A DNA stretch of 64,000 bases from Azotosporobacter soli (lineage in GTDB: Bacteria > Bacillota > Negativicutes > SG130), in NCBI RefSeq assembly GCF_030542965.1, contig NZ_JAUAOA010000004.1, positions 62,001 through 126,000 on the forward strand. Direction: 5' to 3'. The notes beneath the pieces were generated by a model, which worked only from the letters and a program-made list of their open reading frames with translations, was not told the origin of the DNA and did not search any database. Below, in pieces: positions 46,407 to 54,119 of this stretch (position 1 is its first letter; each line of letters starts with the position of its first letter). A program made the position numbers and the translations under genes.

Positions 46407-46435
46407 TTCTCGAAATAGGGAAAGTGCACTATAAT
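46407..46435 (+). promoter_or_regulatory. Possible promoter of the amidohydrolase operon
   Basis: A perfect TATAAT (46430-46435) with a weak TTCTCG 17 nt upstream. It overlaps the first ATG of the long frame, which argues for the internal start. Confidence 0.45.
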
Positions 46436-46487
46436 GAAGGCTATGCGAAATCGTTGCCTGACTAAGGATCGGTTTGAAGGGGAAATG

Positions 46488-48287
46488 ATGCAAGACGGAG
46501 CGTTTATAGTGATGACGGCGAAACGGTTATTCAAGAACGGCTATATATATACGGTTGATTCCAAGCAGACGGTGGCCGAAGCGATTGCTGTCGGCCAGGA
46601 TGGAAATATCCTCTTTGTCGGCGACAATGCGGCGGCTGAAGCGTTTTGCACAGCCGATACCCGTGTGACAGATTTAGAAGGAAAATTTGTCTTGCCGGGT
46701 TTTTCCGATAATCATACCCACGCAGGCCTATTTGCGGAAAAATTTACTGGGATCTACCTGGGAGCGGCGAAAACGGTGCCGGAATATCTGAAAATCATTC
46801 GGGCTTTTGCTGCGGATAGCGCGCAGCGTGAAGCGGAATTCGTGAGCGGGAGCAATTGGGAACAGGCGGTCTTCCAGGCGTACAACCTTAATATGTATGG
46901 TCTTTCACCGGAGAGTAATCTTGGCCCGAGCCGATTCTTGTTGGATGAAGCCTTGCGCGGCACCTTTCTGGAAAATGTGCCGGTCAAGCTGTATTCGAGC
47001 GATCTTCATTGCGCCTGGTATAACAGTGTGGCTATTGAAGTTGCCAAAGCGAACGGTTTTGAGGCGAAGGCGGAAGAGCATGAAAGCAAAGTGCCGCAGG
47101 ACTTTAGCGGAACGTATCATGGTACGGATTTTTCCGCATACCGGGGGCAAGCCTGGGGCGTCTATAAAGAAGCCGCCATTCAACGTCTGGATGCGCATCT
47201 GCCGCAACAGCCCATATGGAGGAAGAAAGAACTGGCCGGAGCCGGGATGCAGGGCTTCCTGCGGGAGATGCACTCCTACGGAGTGACGCTGCTGCAGGAT
47301 GTATTGCTTGCGCCGTTGCAGGATAATACCCATCTGGACGCTGTGTACGAATCGATCAAGAGCGGACAAGAAAAAATGCTGTGGCGTGTCTCCTTGCTGG
47401 GCGATGTGAATGATCCGGAACGGACGGTGCGTGAATTTCGTACAACGCAGCGCCGTTATTCCGGCACGGAGGATTTCAAATTCTTTTCCGTTAAATTATT
47501 TGCCGACGGCATTCAAAAAAATATGTATGTGATGCAGCCTTACGCGGATGAAGTGGAGAATCCGGCGAATATAGGCGGTTTCTATAACAATATTTCCCGG
47601 GAAAAAATCAGAATGTTCATCCAAACCCTACACCGCGAAAACATACCGCTGCATATCCATGCCATGGGAGACAGGGCGGTCAAAGAGTGTCTCGACGCAA
47701 TCGAAGAAGCTCAGGAAAAATACGGCAGGAAAGAACTCGGCCATACGATCACGCACTTGCTTTTGATCCGGCCCGAAGATGTCCGGCGAATGGCAATCTT
47801 GAAAGTGACGGCGTCGCTCAACTCGTTTTGGCATTATAAAGAACCTCTCTATTATGAAGAGATCTTTGCGCCCATTTTGGGGCCTGAGCGAGCCGCAACT
47901 GCTTTTCCTGCAAAACGTTTCTTCGCTGCAGGCGTCTTGACTTGTCTGGCCAGCGATGGTACCGTCAGCGAAAAGCCGACGCCGCTCTGGGGAATTGAGA
48001 TCGCCGTTACCCGGAATAAGCCTGGGGCAAAAGATCGCAAGCGGCAGCACAATCCGGCAGAGCGGATCTCACGTCAGCAGGCCATTGCAATGTGTACACT
48101 CAATGGAGCGCGGGCACTTGGTCTTGAAGGCGTCACCGGCTCTTTGGAAGCAGGCAAGCGGGCCGACATGGTGGTCTTGGCTGAAAATATCCTAACGATT
48201 GCGGCAAACGAGATTCACGCAGCCGCTGTCTTGGAAACCATCTGCCGGGGGAAAACGGTCTACCGCTCACCCGAATGGCGACGCTGA
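46488..48287 (+). CDS. YtcJ-type amidohydrolase
   Basis: 599 residues of the amidohydrolase superfamily (YtcJ/Amidohydro_3). The metal site reads SDNHTHAGLF (His-X-His), VKLFADGIQKN, LHIHAMGDRAV, GHTITHLLL and LASDGTVSEKP. A composite beta-sandwich is formed by both ends (RLFKNGYIYTVDS; GSLEAGKRADMVVLAEN). It hydrolyses an amide, cyclic amide or similar bond in the cytoplasm; the substrate is unknown. ATG 46488 (or 46485) follows GAAGGGG. It is followed at 48 nt by an APC permease, which probably imports its substrate. Confidence 0.88.
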   Translation: MQDGAFIVMTAKRLFKNGYIYTVDSKQTVAEAIAVGQDGNILFVGDNAAAEAFCTADTRVTDLEGKFVLPGFSDNHTHAGLFAEKFTGIYLGAAKTVPEYLKIIRAFAADSAQREAEFVSGSNWEQAVFQAYNLNMYGLSPESNLGPSRFLLDEALRGTFLENVPVKLYSSDLHCAWYNSVAIEVAKANGFEAKAEEHESKVPQDFSGTYHGTDFSAYRGQAWGVYKEAAIQRLDAHLPQQPIWRKKELAGAGMQGFLREMHSYGVTLLQDVLLAPLQDNTHLDAVYESIKSGQEKMLWRVSLLGDVNDPERTVREFRTTQRRYSGTEDFKFFSVKLFADGIQKNMYVMQPYADEVENPANIGGFYNNISREKIRMFIQTLHRENIPLHIHAMGDRAVKECLDAIEEAQEKYGRKELGHTITHLLLIRPEDVRRMAILKVTASLNSFWHYKEPLYYEEIFAPILGPERAATAFPAKRFFAAGVLTCLASDGTVSEKPTPLWGIEIAVTRNKPGAKDRKRQHNPAERISRQQAIAMCTLNGARALGLEGVTGSLEAGKRADMVVLAENILTIAANEIHAAAVLETICRGKTVYRSPEWRR

Positions 48288-48335: not shown

Positions 48336-49721
48336 ATGGAATCGAACGACAATGTCGCGGAAAGCAAACTGCGCAGTCTGGGCTATGAACCGGCGTTCAA
48401 ACGGGTTCTCGGCGTAAGCAGCCTTGTTTGGTTTGGCCTTTCGTATTTAAGCCCCATTGAGGTGTTTACGCAATTCGGTCTTATGTCCGGCATGACGCAT
48501 GGCATGATGACGCTGGCATATTTGGTGGCCACGCTGGCGATTTTGTTCACTGTCGCCAGTTATTCGAAAATGGTATCCGTTTATCCGGTCGCCGGTTCGG
48601 CCTACACCTACGTGCAACGTTCCGTCAACCCGCACCTGGGCTTTATTACCGGCTGGGTGATGTTGCTCGACTACATCCTGCTGCCTATGGTCTGCATCCT
48701 GTTTTTAGGTTTGTTCATGAATAATTACTGTCCGCTTGTGCCGATATGGGCGTGGATTATTCTCAGCGTTCTTATCGTTGGCGTGATCAATGTTTTGGGC
48801 ATAGAGCCGACGGTAAGAGTCAATACGGGGACGGTAATCGCCCAGGCGGCTTTCTCGCTGCTTTTTCTCTTCGTAGTTGCCAAGCTCGTCATGGAGGGGG
48901 GCGGAGCGGGAACGTTCTACTCCTGGCCGGCTATCTATAACGCGCCGGAATTCAACACGGATGATTTTTTAATGTCAGTGGGCGTTTTGACCATTGCTTT
49001 TCTCGGCTTTGATGCGGTGACCACGCTGGCGGAAGAGACGCATCAGCCCGAAAAAACAGTCGGAAGAGCGTTGCTGTTTGTTTGCCTGATTGCCGGAAGC
49101 TTCTTTCTCCTGATCTCTTATTTTTGCCAAATCGCCTGGCCGTCAGCCTGGAAAGAGATTGTCGATCCCAACACGGGATTCCTGGAAGTGTCGCTGCACC
49201 TGCAGGCGGATTACATGCAGTCCTTGTATTTCTGGATCGGCAACCTGGCCAGCCTGACCTGCGTCGTCTCAGCGCAGGCTACGATAGCGCGCATTCTTTT
49301 CGGCATGGGGCGGGACGGCGCCTTGCCGAAACGGTTCTTTGCCTACGTCAGTCCCCGTTATAAGACGCCGGTTTATAATATCGCGCTCGTATCGACCATA
49401 TCACTGAGTGCGGTCTTTTTTTCCGACAGCGTCATGAACGCGGTGTCGCTCATCAGTTTTGGCGCTTTACTAGGCTTCATAATGGTCAATATCGCCGTGA
49501 TTTCTCATTTTTATCTGCGCGGGAAACGGCGATCGCCGGTCGACACCATCCAATACCTGCTTTTTCCGCTGACTGGCGCGGGACTTTGTTTGTATTTTCT
49601 TTTAAGCCTTGCCTATCAGGCAAAAGTGCTGGGCTTTGCGTGGCTCGGATTGGGCATTCTCTACACGGCGCTCAGCACCGATTTCTTTAGAAAATTGCCG
49701 CCGGATCTTACGTTGGAATAG
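48336..49721 (+). CDS. APC-superfamily amino-acid/amine permease
   Basis: 461 residues with about 12 helices. The first helix (FKRVLGVSSLVWFGLSYLSPI) has the broken-helix style of APC carriers. VYPVAGSAYTYVQRSVNPHLGFITGWVMLLDYI holds the conserved Gly-Ser-Ala-Tyr and Gly-Trp motifs in adjacent pieces. AFLGFDAVTTLAEETHQPEKTVGRALL is the classic TM6-7 signature. SD AAGACGGAGG precedes ATG. It is cotranscribed with the amidohydrolase gene. The likely substrate is an amino acid, amine or amide for that enzyme (inference). Confidence 0.92.
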   Translation: MESNDNVAESKLRSLGYEPAFKRVLGVSSLVWFGLSYLSPIEVFTQFGLMSGMTHGMMTLAYLVATLAILFTVASYSKMVSVYPVAGSAYTYVQRSVNPHLGFITGWVMLLDYILLPMVCILFLGLFMNNYCPLVPIWAWIILSVLIVGVINVLGIEPTVRVNTGTVIAQAAFSLLFLFVVAKLVMEGGGAGTFYSWPAIYNAPEFNTDDFLMSVGVLTIAFLGFDAVTTLAEETHQPEKTVGRALLFVCLIAGSFFLLISYFCQIAWPSAWKEIVDPNTGFLEVSLHLQADYMQSLYFWIGNLASLTCVVSAQATIARILFGMGRDGALPKRFFAYVSPRYKTPVYNIALVSTISLSAVFFSDSVMNAVSLISFGALLGFIMVNIAVISHFYLRGKRRSPVDTIQYLLFPLTGAGLCLYFLLSLAYQAKVLGFAWLGLGILYTALSTDFFRKLPPDLTLE

Positions 49722-49805: not shown

Positions 49806-50984
49806 ATGTATACAGAGAAAATTCCTTTTGAGGATAACGATCCGCTGCGCATCCAACTTTATAAGATCGACGAATATCCGTTGCATTGCCATGAAGACGC
49901 GATCGAAATCATCTTCGTGCTTAAAGGCACGGTGAAAGTGAAGGTGAGTTTTGAATACTTCACGTTGAGCGAAGGCGATTATGTGGTCGTGAACAAAGAA
50001 GACTCGCATAAGATATGGCGGCACGACAAGCGGGACAATATGGTCGCCGTTTTCCAGATCAGCCTGCTACAATACCGCAGCGCTTTTCCGCACATTGATT
50101 ACGTTCTCTTTGCCTGTGAATCCTTTGATCTTGCAAAATACAAAGGGCATACGACAAAACTGCGCCAATGTTTGCTCAGCCTGATCGATAATACGATCAA
50201 AGGCGGTGAAGAAGAGGCGACAAAGGAGATCACAGACGGAATCATGGATACGCTGGTCAGAGAATATTCCCTGGAGCGCTATTACAACCGGCAGAGCGAC
50301 ATCAGTGACGAGAAACTGGCGATCTATTACAAGATCGTTCAATATATCTATGAGAACTATACAGCCAAAACGATCCTCGAAGACATCGCGCGCGAATCGT
50401 TTTATTCAAAGTCGTATATCTCGCACCTGTTCAAAGAGGTTGGCGCCGCCAGTTTTCAGGAGATTCTGGGTTATATCCGCGTCTATAAAGCGGAGCGACT
50501 GCTGCTGGAAAGCGATTACCCGCTTGCTGCAATATCCGAACGCTGCGGTTTTTCCGATATAAAATACTTAAATCAGACCTTTAAAAAATGGTTCCAGATC
50601 AAGCCCTCCGCGTATCGCCGGAACTATCAAAACCAAATCGGAAAAGAAGTGAAAGTAAAGCCCGTGTCTCACGATAAGGCCAAGCAGAAGCTCGAAGCGT
50701 TAGTCAACCTGGCTGATGACGATGACGAATATAAAGTGTGCATGACGCCGATCACGCTGAAAAACATCGGCTCCAAAACCGATCTGCTGCACTGCCTGAA
50801 CCAGAATAAAAGTTTGAACGAAAGCGAAGCGGCGGCAACCGGAAAACAAGCGGGGACGAGCTATGCCGTCATCCGAATCGGCGCAGACGAGCATGCGGAA
50901 GATACAAAAGAACAATTGAAAAATTTCTTAGAGGACTTTTGCAACAAGGCAAGCGGTGAAATCGAATATTGGTTTATCAAATGA
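49806..50984 (+). CDS. AraC family regulator with a C-terminal extension
   Basis: 392 residues. The cupin sensor covers ~10-80 (YPLHCHEDAIEIIFVLKGTV, LSEGDYVVVNKEDSHKI). The AraC double helix-turn-helix covers ~180-280 (TILEDIARESFYSKSYISHLFKEV; YPLAAISERCGFSDIKYLNQTFKKWFQIKPSAY in parts). About 110 more residues follow, which is unusual since the HTH normally ends the protein. This tail (VCMTPITLKNIGSKTDLLHC; SYAVIRIGADEHAEDTKEQL) has a small alpha/beta look. I do not recognise it. It follows the amidohydrolase-permease pair and may control it. Confidence 0.9.
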   Translation: MYTEKIPFEDNDPLRIQLYKIDEYPLHCHEDAIEIIFVLKGTVKVKVSFEYFTLSEGDYVVVNKEDSHKIWRHDKRDNMVAVFQISLLQYRSAFPHIDYVLFACESFDLAKYKGHTTKLRQCLLSLIDNTIKGGEEEATKEITDGIMDTLVREYSLERYYNRQSDISDEKLAIYYKIVQYIYENYTAKTILEDIARESFYSKSYISHLFKEVGAASFQEILGYIRVYKAERLLLESDYPLAAISERCGFSDIKYLNQTFKKWFQIKPSAYRRNYQNQIGKEVKVKPVSHDKAKQKLEALVNLADDDDEYKVCMTPITLKNIGSKTDLLHCLNQNKSLNESEAAATGKQAGTSYAVIRIGADEHAEDTKEQLKNFLEDFCNKASGEIEYWFIK

Positions 50985-51026: not shown

Positions 51027-51063
51027 AGAGACCGGAAACTATACGGATAGTTTCCGGTCTTTA
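51027..51063 (+). terminator. Rho-independent terminator
   Basis: Perfect stem AGACCGGAAACTAT-ACGG-ATAGTTTCCGGTCT, then TT. It ends the AraC gene. Confidence 0.85.
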
Positions 51064-51152
51064 ATTTGCAAAGAAGCGCTCTTGAAAAATCCGCGTCGTC
51101 AAGTGTTAGAGAATATTATAAGAGCAAGGCGGTAAAAATAACGAATACAGCA

Positions 51153-51183
51153 GAATTGTCATAGTACCATAGCGCGATTGGCC
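51153..51183. repeat. Copy A of a 31-nt element shared by two upstream regions
   Basis: Matches 51942-51972 at 26 of 31 positions; the first 14 (GAATTGTCATAGTA) are identical. It lies 70 nt before the orphan gene at 51254. Confidence 0.7.
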
Positions 51184-51253
51184 CATGAGAAAAAAACATA
51201 CAACATTTATAATTGATAACAGGTAATTAAAAAAACAGAAAAGAGGGATGATA

Positions 51254-51814
51254 ATGTCTAATGTAAATTCTTTTTTCAACCAATACCAAGATCTCCTTAC
51301 CGCACAAGCCAAAGCCTTCAAAACTGCGATTGATGAACACGGCATTGAAAGTTTGAGTAATCCCGATAGTTTTTTCAAGATTTCCGCTACAAACCCTGGC
51401 ATGGTAAAGGTCAATCAGGAGGCTGCATCGCAAGGATTTAGCACGAATGCATTTGGCTGGATGACCTCAGCCTCTTTTATAGTGGGAGCCCAAACGCTTA
51501 CACCTCTGATTCTGGAAAAAGAGGGCAAGGAAACGAGAGGCTCCTGGACATCAACTACGCTAGGATTAAGTGCAGGCGCTGCCACAGGCCCTATGTGGGG
51601 ATTTTTCAACCATGATCCGAAGTGGCTGATTATTGATGACGGAGGAACACACGTCAATACATATGGAGATGGATTTGCACTTGTCGCGGGGATTGAACAA
51701 CTGTTTTTCACGCGCTCGGCGGATGACTCCTTTTTGGGCTGGATGATCGGGCCGGTTGCAGGTCTTAATTCCAATATATTCAAAGCCGGCATTTCCGGTA
51801 AGATTAGCTCCTGA
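51254..51814 (+). CDS. Orphan protein of unknown function
   Basis: 186-187 residues, not recognised. ATG 51254 follows AGAGGG; the upstream ATG 51248 overlaps the spacer. No signal peptide is evident. The N-terminal ~45 residues are helical (FFNQYQDLLTAQAKAFKTAIDEHG). The rest is Gly/Ser/Thr-rich with repeated amphipathic strands (FGWMTSASFIVGAQTLTPL, TTLGLSAGAATGPMWGFFNHDP, WLIIDDGGTHVNTYGDGFALVAG), like a small beta-barrel. The codon choice is more A/T-rich than in neighbours, hinting at transfer. It shares an upstream element with the autotransporter gene that follows, so the two may be co-regulated. A VapA-like or lipid-binding barrel is a guess only. Confidence 0.7.
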   Translation: MSNVNSFFNQYQDLLTAQAKAFKTAIDEHGIESLSNPDSFFKISATNPGMVKVNQEAASQGFSTNAFGWMTSASFIVGAQTLTPLILEKEGKETRGSWTSTTLGLSAGAATGPMWGFFNHDPKWLIIDDGGTHVNTYGDGFALVAGIEQLFFTRSADDSFLGWMIGPVAGLNSNIFKAGISGKISS

Positions 51815-51857
51815 TTTTTATGCTAAGCGATGAACGCTGACGTATAAGTGAATAGCG

Positions 51858-51908
51858 AAAAACGAAGCGATAGGAACGAAGCTGTGAAGTTCCTATCGCT
51901 TCGTTTTT
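51858..51908 (+). terminator. Rho-independent terminator
   Basis: A perfect 20-bp stem, 51858-51877 with 51889-51908, ending in TTTTT. It ends the orphan gene. Confidence 0.92.
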
Positions 51909-51941
51909 GAATTTTTGTTACTAAGGCCGAAGAAGAGAGCT

Positions 51942-51972
51942 GAATTGTCATAGTATCACAGCAGGATTGTCC
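51942..51972. repeat. Copy B of the shared 31-nt element
   Basis: Same orientation as 51153-51183, 26 of 31 identical. It lies about 150 nt before the autotransporter start. Confidence 0.7.
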
Positions 51973-52121
51973 TGCAATAATGAGCGGAAATCGGTTATAG
52001 TTATGAAAACGTGAGAGCGTCCGTCAAGAAAAAATAGGAGACGGATGGATTTCGAGCTGCGCTGGACAGGAGTGCGGAAGATAAATAAGTATGATTTTTG
52101 AACCAAGGAAGGTACGCTGCA

Positions 52122-54119
52122 ATGAGGAAGAAAGCAAGGCTTAACCGAAAAAAAGTGCTGTTGATCCGTATGATCGGCTGTCTGGCCGGACTGGGACTGA
52201 CCCCGGCGGCGCCAAGCGATCTGCTGCCCGTCGCGCACGCGGCGGTGATCGAGATCGACAACAGTACGATGGATGTTTACTGGAACTATATAGATGGTGC
52301 AAATGTTAACAGCGGCGGCACTCTGAATCTCCTTGGCAGAGCTAGCCTGGGTGGGATTACGAATGTAAACAGCGGCGGCACGCTGAACAGCACGCATAGT
52401 GATATAATGGGCACTACGAACGTCAACAGCGGTGGCGTGCTGAATGTCAACGACAGTGGCTATATAACGGGGATTACGAACGTCAACGGCGGCACGTTAA
52501 ACGTCAACGCACTCGCTGGTGTGAATGGGATTACGAATGTCAACAGCGGCACAGTAAACGTCAACGCCTACGGTTATTTGTATGGTACTACGAACGTCAA
52601 CAGCGGCGGCAAACTGAACATCAACGCCGGCGGCTATCTGAACAATTTGCATTGGATTACGAACGTCAACAACGGCGGTGTGCTGACCGTCAACGCCAGC
52701 GCTTGCGTGGATGGAACTACGAACGTCAACAGCGGCGGTGCGATACAATTGAAGGCCGGAGCGGCTTTGTCAGGAAATACGCAACTGGAGCAGGGCTTGA
52801 TCCAGCTAAGCGATGCCTCGGCTGCCTATAGCATCACGAACCTGGCGGCCAACAACGGCGCAGTCAGTCTCTTTAACAACCGGAATGTCGGCAATAACCT
52901 TAGCATCGGGACGCTGCAAGGCACGACGACGTTTATCATCAATACCGACCTGGCGCACGGCCGATCCGACCGGATCGCGATCACGAACGCGGTGAATGCG
53001 CAAAATAAACTGAAGGTCAACTATGATCCGTCTTTTCTGACGGGCAGGAGCATAACCGGTTCGGCCGTATTTGCAACCGTAGCCTCCGGCAGCGCGACAT
53101 TTCAGGCGTTGCCAACCGATTACGGCGCCTACCGTTATACGCCGACGCTCAGTCAAAGCGGGACGACCTGGAGCATAACCGGTTTTACGCTGCCAAGCGC
53201 AGGCAGCGAAGGCGCGAGCCAGACCGTATACAGCGGGTTGCATACCGCGACCAGCAATCTGATGCTCTGGCGGGCCGTAAACAACAACCTGACGCGGCGG
53301 ATGGGCGAACTGCGCACATCGCCGGGCAATGCCGGCGAGTGGCTTCGGATCTATCGCGGCGCGCAGGAAACGCCAGGCAGTCAGCTGAAACAAACCTACA
53401 CCGCGATGCAGGGCGGCTATGACACGCGGCACGAAGGGAAGAACGGCGTCTGGTTTACCGGCTATGCGCTCGGCTATCTGCAAGGCAGCAACACGCTGGA
53501 ACGCGGCAGCGGCAGCAGCAGCAGCCTGACGCTTGGCGCATACGCGAGCTGGCTGGGCAACAACGGGCAGTACCTCGATCTGATCGCCAAACAAGGCCGC
53601 CTGCGCAACAATTTTGACTCCTATCTGAACAATGCGTCGGCGACGCAAGTCAATGGCAACTACAGCAATTGGGGCAGCAGTCTCTCGGCGGAATACGGTT
53701 TGCGCAAAAAATTGGCCAGCGGCTGGTATCTCGAACCGCAGGCGGAAATCAATCTGGGCCGGACAAGTTCGGCCAGCTATACGACCAGCGACGGAACGAG
53801 CGCTTATAATCGGGCGGCCAACTCGGTCGTCGGTCGTTTGGGCTTGGCGATCGGCCGGATGGTGGAGAAAAGCAGCTTTTACGTCAAAGCGTCGTTGGCC
53901 AGAGAATTCAGCGCCTCCTCTTCCGTTTCCATGACAAGCGGCGGTCTGCCCGGCGTTACGCTGGGACAAAATCTGAAAGACACCTGGCTGGAAATGGATC
54001 TCGGCTGGACGATTTCGCACGGCAACGGCTTGAATAGTTATCTCGAACTCAGCCGAACCAGCGGCGGCATCACCAATATGCCTTGGCAGGTGAACGCCGG
54101 GATCCGTAAAAGTTTTTAA
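52122..54119 (+). CDS. Type V autotransporter with Asn-rich repeat passenger
   Basis: 665 residues. The signal region is long (KKVLLIRMIGCLAGLGLTP...VAHAAV). Residues ~60-215 are repeats of 21-28 residues built on TNVNSGGxLNVN, an AidA-like beta-helix passenger. A linker/pertactin-like stem follows (~215-390). The last ~270 residues are an autotransporter barrel (EWLRIYRGAQET, VWFTGYALGYL, SLTLGAYASWLGNNGQYLDL) ending in the Phe needed for outer-membrane insertion. It displays or secretes an adhesin-like surface protein. ATG 52122 follows AAGGAAGG. It shares an upstream element with the orphan gene. Strong evidence for an outer membrane in this host. Confidence 0.93.
   Translation: MRKKARLNRKKVLLIRMIGCLAGLGLTPAAPSDLLPVAHAAVIEIDNSTMDVYWNYIDGANVNSGGTLNLLGRASLGGITNVNSGGTLNSTHSDIMGTTNVNSGGVLNVNDSGYITGITNVNGGTLNVNALAGVNGITNVNSGTVNVNAYGYLYGTTNVNSGGKLNINAGGYLNNLHWITNVNNGGVLTVNASACVDGTTNVNSGGAIQLKAGAALSGNTQLEQGLIQLSDASAAYSITNLAANNGAVSLFNNRNVGNNLSIGTLQGTTTFIINTDLAHGRSDRIAITNAVNAQNKLKVNYDPSFLTGRSITGSAVFATVASGSATFQALPTDYGAYRYTPTLSQSGTTWSITGFTLPSAGSEGASQTVYSGLHTATSNLMLWRAVNNNLTRRMGELRTSPGNAGEWLRIYRGAQETPGSQLKQTYTAMQGGYDTRHEGKNGVWFTGYALGYLQGSNTLERGSGSSSSLTLGAYASWLGNNGQYLDLIAKQGRLRNNFDSYLNNASATQVNGNYSNWGSSLSAEYGLRKKLASGWYLEPQAEINLGRTSSASYTTSDGTSAYNRAANSVVGRLGLAIGRMVEKSSFYVKASLAREFSASSSVSMTSGGLPGVTLGQNLKDTWLEMDLGWTISHGNGLNSYLELSRTSGGITNMPWQVNAGIRKSF
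52300..52770 (+). repeat. Coding repeats of the autotransporter passenger
   Basis: About eight imperfect DNA repeats of 63-84 nt, each with a core near ACGAACGTCAACAGCGGCGG that encodes TNVNSGG. Unit length varies by insertion of small loops. The high identity suggests recent expansion or gene-conversion activity. Confidence 0.85.

Follow-up and report, generated by a model that had tools for sequence, protein, structure and literature searches.

A conserved tandem element upstream of an orphan gene and an autotransporter gene in Azotosporobacter soli is a probable operator for an AraC-family activator

The window analysed here is a stretch of 64,000 nucleotides from Azotosporobacter soli, a member of the Negativicutes. 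In it two successive genes, one coding for an orphan protein and the other for an autotransporter, are each preceded by a copy of the same short element, which raises the question of what the element does and what might read it. The original prediction was that the genes are separated by a strong terminator, that the element must serve each of them separately, and that one unknown regulator controls surface display and the orphan protein together. The relevant features are listed below, with positions in the window.

46434..48287, + strand: amidohydrolase gene, conserved with the regulator (PF07969, E 3e-60; synteny)
48336..49721, + strand: amino-acid permease gene, conserved with the regulator (PF00324, E 2.7e-32; synteny)
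49806..50984, + strand: gene for a cupin/AraC-type regulator of 392 aa (P0003), directly upstream of copy 1 (Pfam; orthologs in element-holding genomes)
51027..51062, + strand: terminator-like hairpin after the regulator gene and before copy 1 (fold z -6.62)
51149..51182, + strand: tandem element copy 1, before the orphan gene, half-sites 51149-51160 and 51171-51182 (exact match to the window-derived repeat; model 60.6 bits)
51185-51190, + strand: -35-like ATGAGA (4/6), 17 nt before the TATAAT of copy 1 (promoter scan)
51208..51213, + strand: -10-like TATAAT, 25 nt past copy 1
51254..51814, + strand: orphan gene, 186 aa (P0001; no relatives found; atypical codon use)
51858..51908, + strand: terminator-like hairpin after the orphan gene and before copy 2 (fold z -6.57)
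51938..51971, + strand: tandem element copy 2, before the autotransporter gene, half-sites 51938-51949 and 51960-51971 (exact match to the window-derived repeat; model 59.8 bits)
51996..52001, + strand: -10-like TATAGT, 24 nt past copy 2
52122..54119, + strand: autotransporter gene, 665 aa (P0002; PF03797, E 1.3e-33; TIGR01414, E 5.9e-52)

The match between the two copies is as originally described. Positions 51153-51183 and 51942-51972 are identical at 26 of 31 positions and lie on the same strand, with the first 14 nt identical, and the start codons at 51254 and 52122 are 70 nt past copy 1 and 149 nt past copy 2, in agreement with the 70 and about 150 nt given before. The likeness reaches 10 nt farther upstream (33/41 positions). 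A search of the window with the 31-nt consensus, allowing up to 3 mismatches, gave 2 matches, compared to 0 in 100 shuffles. The strong terminator placed between the two genes corresponds to the hairpin at 51858-51908, which scores well on folding; a simple terminator scan of the window listed neither this hairpin nor the one at 51027-51062.

Each copy proves to be a tandem direct repeat, AGCnnnATTGkC-N10-AGCnnnATTGkC, with a period of 22 bp. At a lag of 22, 18 of 24 positions match over both copies (p 0.0036 against shuffled pairs with matched divergence), and the two-part pattern, searched with up to 3 mismatches, occurs twice in the window, each time without a mismatch, against an expectation of 0.19 matches. 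A TATAnT hexamer is found 24-25 nt past the repeat in all nine of the elements identified in eight genomes, which comprise five distinct 34-mers. At the frequency of the window, the chance of TATAnT at two given positions is about 0.002, and it is present within 40 nt of none of 17 weaker repeat matches (plus-strand matches). If the hexamer is taken as -12 to -7, the two half-sites occupy approximately -71 to -60 and -49 to -38, so that the element would lie beside or across the -35 of the promoter that it serves. The promoter scan listed no promoter with a -35 at copy 2. A reading of copy 2 as an inverted repeat (CRP-like) and a sporulation-sigma reading were judged by eye and dropped. Between copy 2 and the autotransporter start there is a possible leader frame of 18 codons, MDFELRWTGVRKINKYDF (52045-52101), with a Shine-Dalgarno-like AGGAG.

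No third copy came to light in searches of the whole 3.78-Mb A. soli genome. With one mismatch allowed, the 14-mer gave the two copies and one further match (C37), which lies inside a 549-aa reading frame and was rejected. When 3 mismatches are allowed, the window-derived repeat occurs at 15 places, compared to 10 for a reversed control; the two exact matches are the window copies, and the next best (2 mismatches), inside a frame that resembles fliP by eye, was also rejected. A 21-mer was searched with 3 mismatches in 59 relatives, and one of its nine matches was inspected; it is the 3' end of a LysR-like gene (L005) and was not retained. The original prediction had hoped for further copies upstream of envelope genes, and this was not borne out in the A. 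soli genome, in which only two sites stand out.

Orthologs of P0003 were found (E<=1e-40) in 7 of 299 other genomes of the same class, or 8/300 with A. soli, at 52-64% identity. Up to six candidates per genome were scored, and one family (f23) was scored in full with the same result. The seven genomes are Sporomusa silvacetica, Sporomusa sp. KB1, Sporomusa ovata, two soil MAGs and two of family f11. The order amidohydrolase-permease-araC is kept at six of the seven loci, the exception (L043, in a 58%-complete assembly) showing no amidohydrolase, and of the permease just a fragment, within the 9 kb inspected, and a related autotransporter lies downstream of the regulator at five of the seven. 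The window-derived repeat is found between araC and the next gene at six of them (0 mismatches in L044, L045 and L046, 1 in L043, and 2 in L047 and L048); in KB1 (L042) this interval has no match under 5 mismatches. A widened form of the repeat (second half ATTRYC) was drawn up after some loci had been seen, to admit them, and with 0 mismatches it occurs in 8 of 300 genomes of the class, the same eight in which the regulator was found, where the two sets of 300 genomes are inferred to be the same. Under the widened form copy 2 in A. soli is exact and copy 1 has one mismatch. In family f23, regulator and element are present together in 5 of 12 genomes, and neither is present in the other seven. 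The joint occurrence could be plain linkage, since the two are adjacent in six of the seven other genomes.

A sequence-only model built from the nine elements and searched in the eight genomes returns nine sites at 59.8-75.2 bits, with the next best at 14 bits. These nine match by construction, and the informative result is the gap in score below them. Up to 150 of 188-519 candidates per genome were scored, and among these there is one strong site in each genome, with two only in A. soli. With up to 2 mismatches, the window-derived repeat is found at 26 places in the eight genomes, namely the nine elements and 17 weaker matches; the latter include one-mismatch matches in three Sporomusa genomes, apparently all at the same gene, and an additional one in S. 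ovata. Of the weaker matches as a whole (17 + 13), 28/30 lie inside open frames of at least 199 aa, compared to frames of 66-102 aa for the four true elements tested. The element could have been a plain dispersed repeat, with many copies regardless of promoters. This is not what is seen, given that A. soli has two copies only and that nearly all of the weaker matches lie inside long frames.

The targets of the element in the related genomes are type V surface-display genes. The element stands before autotransporter genes in A. soli, L044, L045, L046 and KB1 (L060/L080), and in L047 and L048 it stands before an autotransporter heptosyltransferase gene, which is followed by an autotransporter. 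In L043/L081 it precedes a broken TpsB-like gene; one of the frames of this gene matches ShlB (35.6 bits), and its 95-residue start has no Pfam match. The heptosyltransferase genes (L047 8933-10174 and L048 4900-6225; TIGR04414, 551.7 bits for L047) lie just before an AIDA-type autotransporter. TIGR04414 is above cut-off in three of the eight genomes, A. soli not being among them.

Sporomusa sp. KB1 (G530, L042, L050) is the only genome in which regulator and element are not linked. No element accompanies its regulator gene, at 5.13 Mb; the only strong element of the genome is 3 Mb away, at 2.06 Mb, and stands before an autotransporter gene whose product shares 90% identity with the S. silvacetica protein. 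Upstream of this element is a remnant of 135 nt that shares 86% identity with the flank in S. silvacetica and holds a decayed araC end; it follows that a regulator gene once stood there and has since been lost. The regulator ortholog that KB1 now has belongs to a different subtype, with 68% identity to the S. silvacetica ortholog and 88% to that of the soil MAG CTSoil_078. The element has stayed with its target, and any reading of it must now take place in trans. The decayed araC end suggests that this loss of linkage may be recent. Next to the KB1 regulator is a convergent pair of genes that by eye resemble two-partner secretion genes (1526 and 594 aa; L050 10698-17075), without a strong element. 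In CTSoil_078 part of a regulator is also found on another contig (L054 960-1193; 78% identity, residues 1-78), possibly a second copy.

P0003 is an AraC-type protein in its domain content. The C-terminal domain with two helix-turn-helix motifs (PF12833, E 1.8e-18) and the N-terminal sensor domain (Cupin_2, E 1.5e-8; AraC_binding, E 1.7e-6) are all above cut-off, and a structure model made from eight orthologs shows strands and helices as expected, with a modest mean pLDDT of 56.4. The NCBIfam families AryK and Rsp match the cupin and HTH to about residue 320, far below their cut-offs. A further feature is a conserved C-terminal extension of about 110 residues past the HTH (about 280-392; window 50700-50984). 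The gene is the last of the series amidohydrolase, permease, P0003, and a weight-matrix scan of the loci found no second sites before amidohydrolase, permease or araC. The regulator's own putative operon is thus without the element, and a second function of the regulator is left unexplained.

The co-occurrence of the element with the regulator gene suggests that it may be bound by an AraC-family protein. It is also conceivable that the operator is read by a different protein, either a response regulator of the OmpR/PhoB kind or another member of the AraC family. Response regulators of the OmpR/PhoB kind bind direct repeats in 11-bp steps, and a 22-bp period is also two such steps; AraC-like candidates are moreover numerous in each genome (3 to 29 in first-look counts). 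However, the element is found in the eight genomes that have the regulator and in none of the others, it adjoins the regulator gene in six of the seven other genomes, and for a general response regulator one would look for more than a single strong site in each genome. Another reader is therefore regarded as unlikely. An action in RNA, as a leader or riboswitch, is extremely improbable. The element does sit in 5' regions, and the folding of the 194-nt stretch that runs from copy 2 up to the start codon is somewhat stronger than that of shuffles (z -1.99, 6/200), but copy 1 with its leader folds no better than shuffles (z +0.71), no Rfam family reaches its gathering score anywhere in the window, and in nine of nine cases the element is upstream of the inferred -10.

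There is also the suggestion that the two copies are a functionless remnant of a local duplication, for which it can be said that they are adjacent, on the same strand, and the only two in the genome. Both have AGCnGA, compared to AGCAGG in other genera, and this common feature weakly favours a duplication in the A. soli lineage. A duplication origin is, however, compatible with function. Copy 1 and copy 2 agree at 28/34 positions, and each agrees with the Sporomusa element also at 28/34, so that they are as unlike each other as each is to an element from another genus. Their flanks outside the 31 nt are not clearly alike: 14 of 16 tests give p>0.05, and the other two (p=0.037 and 0.0195, uncorrected; global alignments) both use the 37 nt just upstream of copy 2, which include the 10 like nt. 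Such a duplication is either not recent or has been followed by selection that preserved the sites alone. Of the 23 positions that are invariant in other lineages, each copy retains 21, and the element is conserved across genera at a fixed distance from the -10. It is correct that A. soli has only these two copies, an outcome that the original prediction had named as counting against itself, but very improbable that they are a meaningless leftover.

The preferred reading, an operator for an AraC-family activator, with P0003 as its likeliest reader and with type V display and the orphan gene as its targets, is given a probability of about 0.75. The sequences provide a bipartite repeat, conserved across genera, at a fixed distance from a -10 hexamer, co-occurring with a regulator and rare in each genome; from these features we infer binding, activation, the identity of the reader and the existence of a signal. 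P0003, on its signal, would bind both half-sites, which at a period of 22 bp (approximately two helical turns) share one face of the helix. Of the two, the downstream one ends 24-25 nt before TATAnT, immediately ahead of the -35 position, and P0003 could then recruit RNA polymerase to a promoter with a weak or missing -35, as in class II-type activation. Against the weak-promoter view, copy 1 has a fair -35-like hexamer. In the related genomes the operator would control one type V surface-display unit, and in A. soli two operators would allow the orphan gene and the autotransporter to respond together despite the hairpin between them. The suggestion that the element serves each gene separately fits well with the occurrence of the same bipartite element, at the same distance from the -10, before display genes elsewhere. 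One common regulator is likewise supported; it need no longer be called unknown, the adjoining AraC-family gene being the best candidate.

For the orphan protein P0001, no relatives were found in Pfam, NCBIfam or PHROGs, none in 59 other genomes of the class and 397 others of the phylum (overlapping sets), and none in phages, plasmids or a pattern-based scan of genome contigs; in five genomes (G494, G510, G522, G526 and G530) it was sought by the pattern-based contig scan and by tblastn on fetched loci only. Two viral-contig matches (L016 and L017; 41% over 40 residues) were rejected, because the L016 match is antisense to a gene that by eye is capsid-like. Four weak matches in the PDB have E 0.06-2.4, and an AlphaFold2 model of P0001 alone has a mean pLDDT of 32.7, too low to be of use. 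The gene has a GC3 of 0.46 and a codon adaptation of 0.56, compared to 0.57-0.71 and 0.66-0.74 for seven neighbours, six of which form the codon reference; the seventh, the autotransporter (0.71, 0.70), is outside it. Among the eight genomes a second strong element is found only in A. soli, before this gene. A foreign gene inserted behind araC and ahead of the autotransporter, and flanked by operators, would fit. The common operator is the only lead to the role of the orphan protein, which gains its first context from the proposed expression together with surface display. A more speculative and rather doubtful extension is that a foreign orphan joined a conserved one-target display circuit via the second operator, that its product works with the autotransporter, and that the regulator reads a compound handled by the amidohydrolase and permease. 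If true, such a circuit would tie surface display in diderm Firmicutes to the sensing of nutrients.

An AraC-type operator is known in kind, and it is as a regulon that the present system is apparently new. Full-text literature on autotransporter regulation in Negativicutes and Sporomusa, including AraC, yielded nothing on it. What began as a 31-base match becomes a testable circuit, for which there are now a candidate for the regulator, half-sites defined to the base, promoter predictions and a small, defined set of targets in Sporomusa and relatives. Rns, VirF and RegA are proteobacterial AraC-family activators of surface or virulence genes. Like them, P0003 is an AraC-type candidate switch for surface proteins, and Rns is found as a PDB relative of its HTH (E 3.9e-4, the match being confined to the HTH). 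The family TIGR04094 (YSIRK-targeted surface antigen transcriptional regulator) is also AraC-type, with a name tied to surface antigen. Its HTH matches P0003 (E 1.4e-10), which at 40.7 bits against a cut-off of 200 is not a member.

Two half-sites beside the -35 region are the architecture of AraC/XylS activators, and direct half-sites about two helical turns apart are found in the window copies, at six of the seven ortholog loci and at the KB1 site. In the account given of the mtlE promoter of Pseudomonas fluorescens, the operator of MtlR (AraC/XylS) consists of direct blocks at -72 to -58 and -50 to -36, 22 bp apart and directly upstream of the -35 (PMC4514859). The window half-sites, at about -71 to -60 and -49 to -38, have the same direct orientation and spacing. 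MtlR serves mannitol use and has been tested by mutation and footprinting, whereas the window element differs in sequence, regulator and target and is known from sequence only. CphR of Rhodococcus (AraC/XylS) is described with two repeats at -69 to -35 (PMC6205950), a geometry that the window element resembles, although the motif described there is TGCA-N6-GGNTA and the targets are phenol degradation genes. Because the geometry in the window equals that of MtlR and resembles that of CphR, P0003 is proposed as the activator of both promoters.
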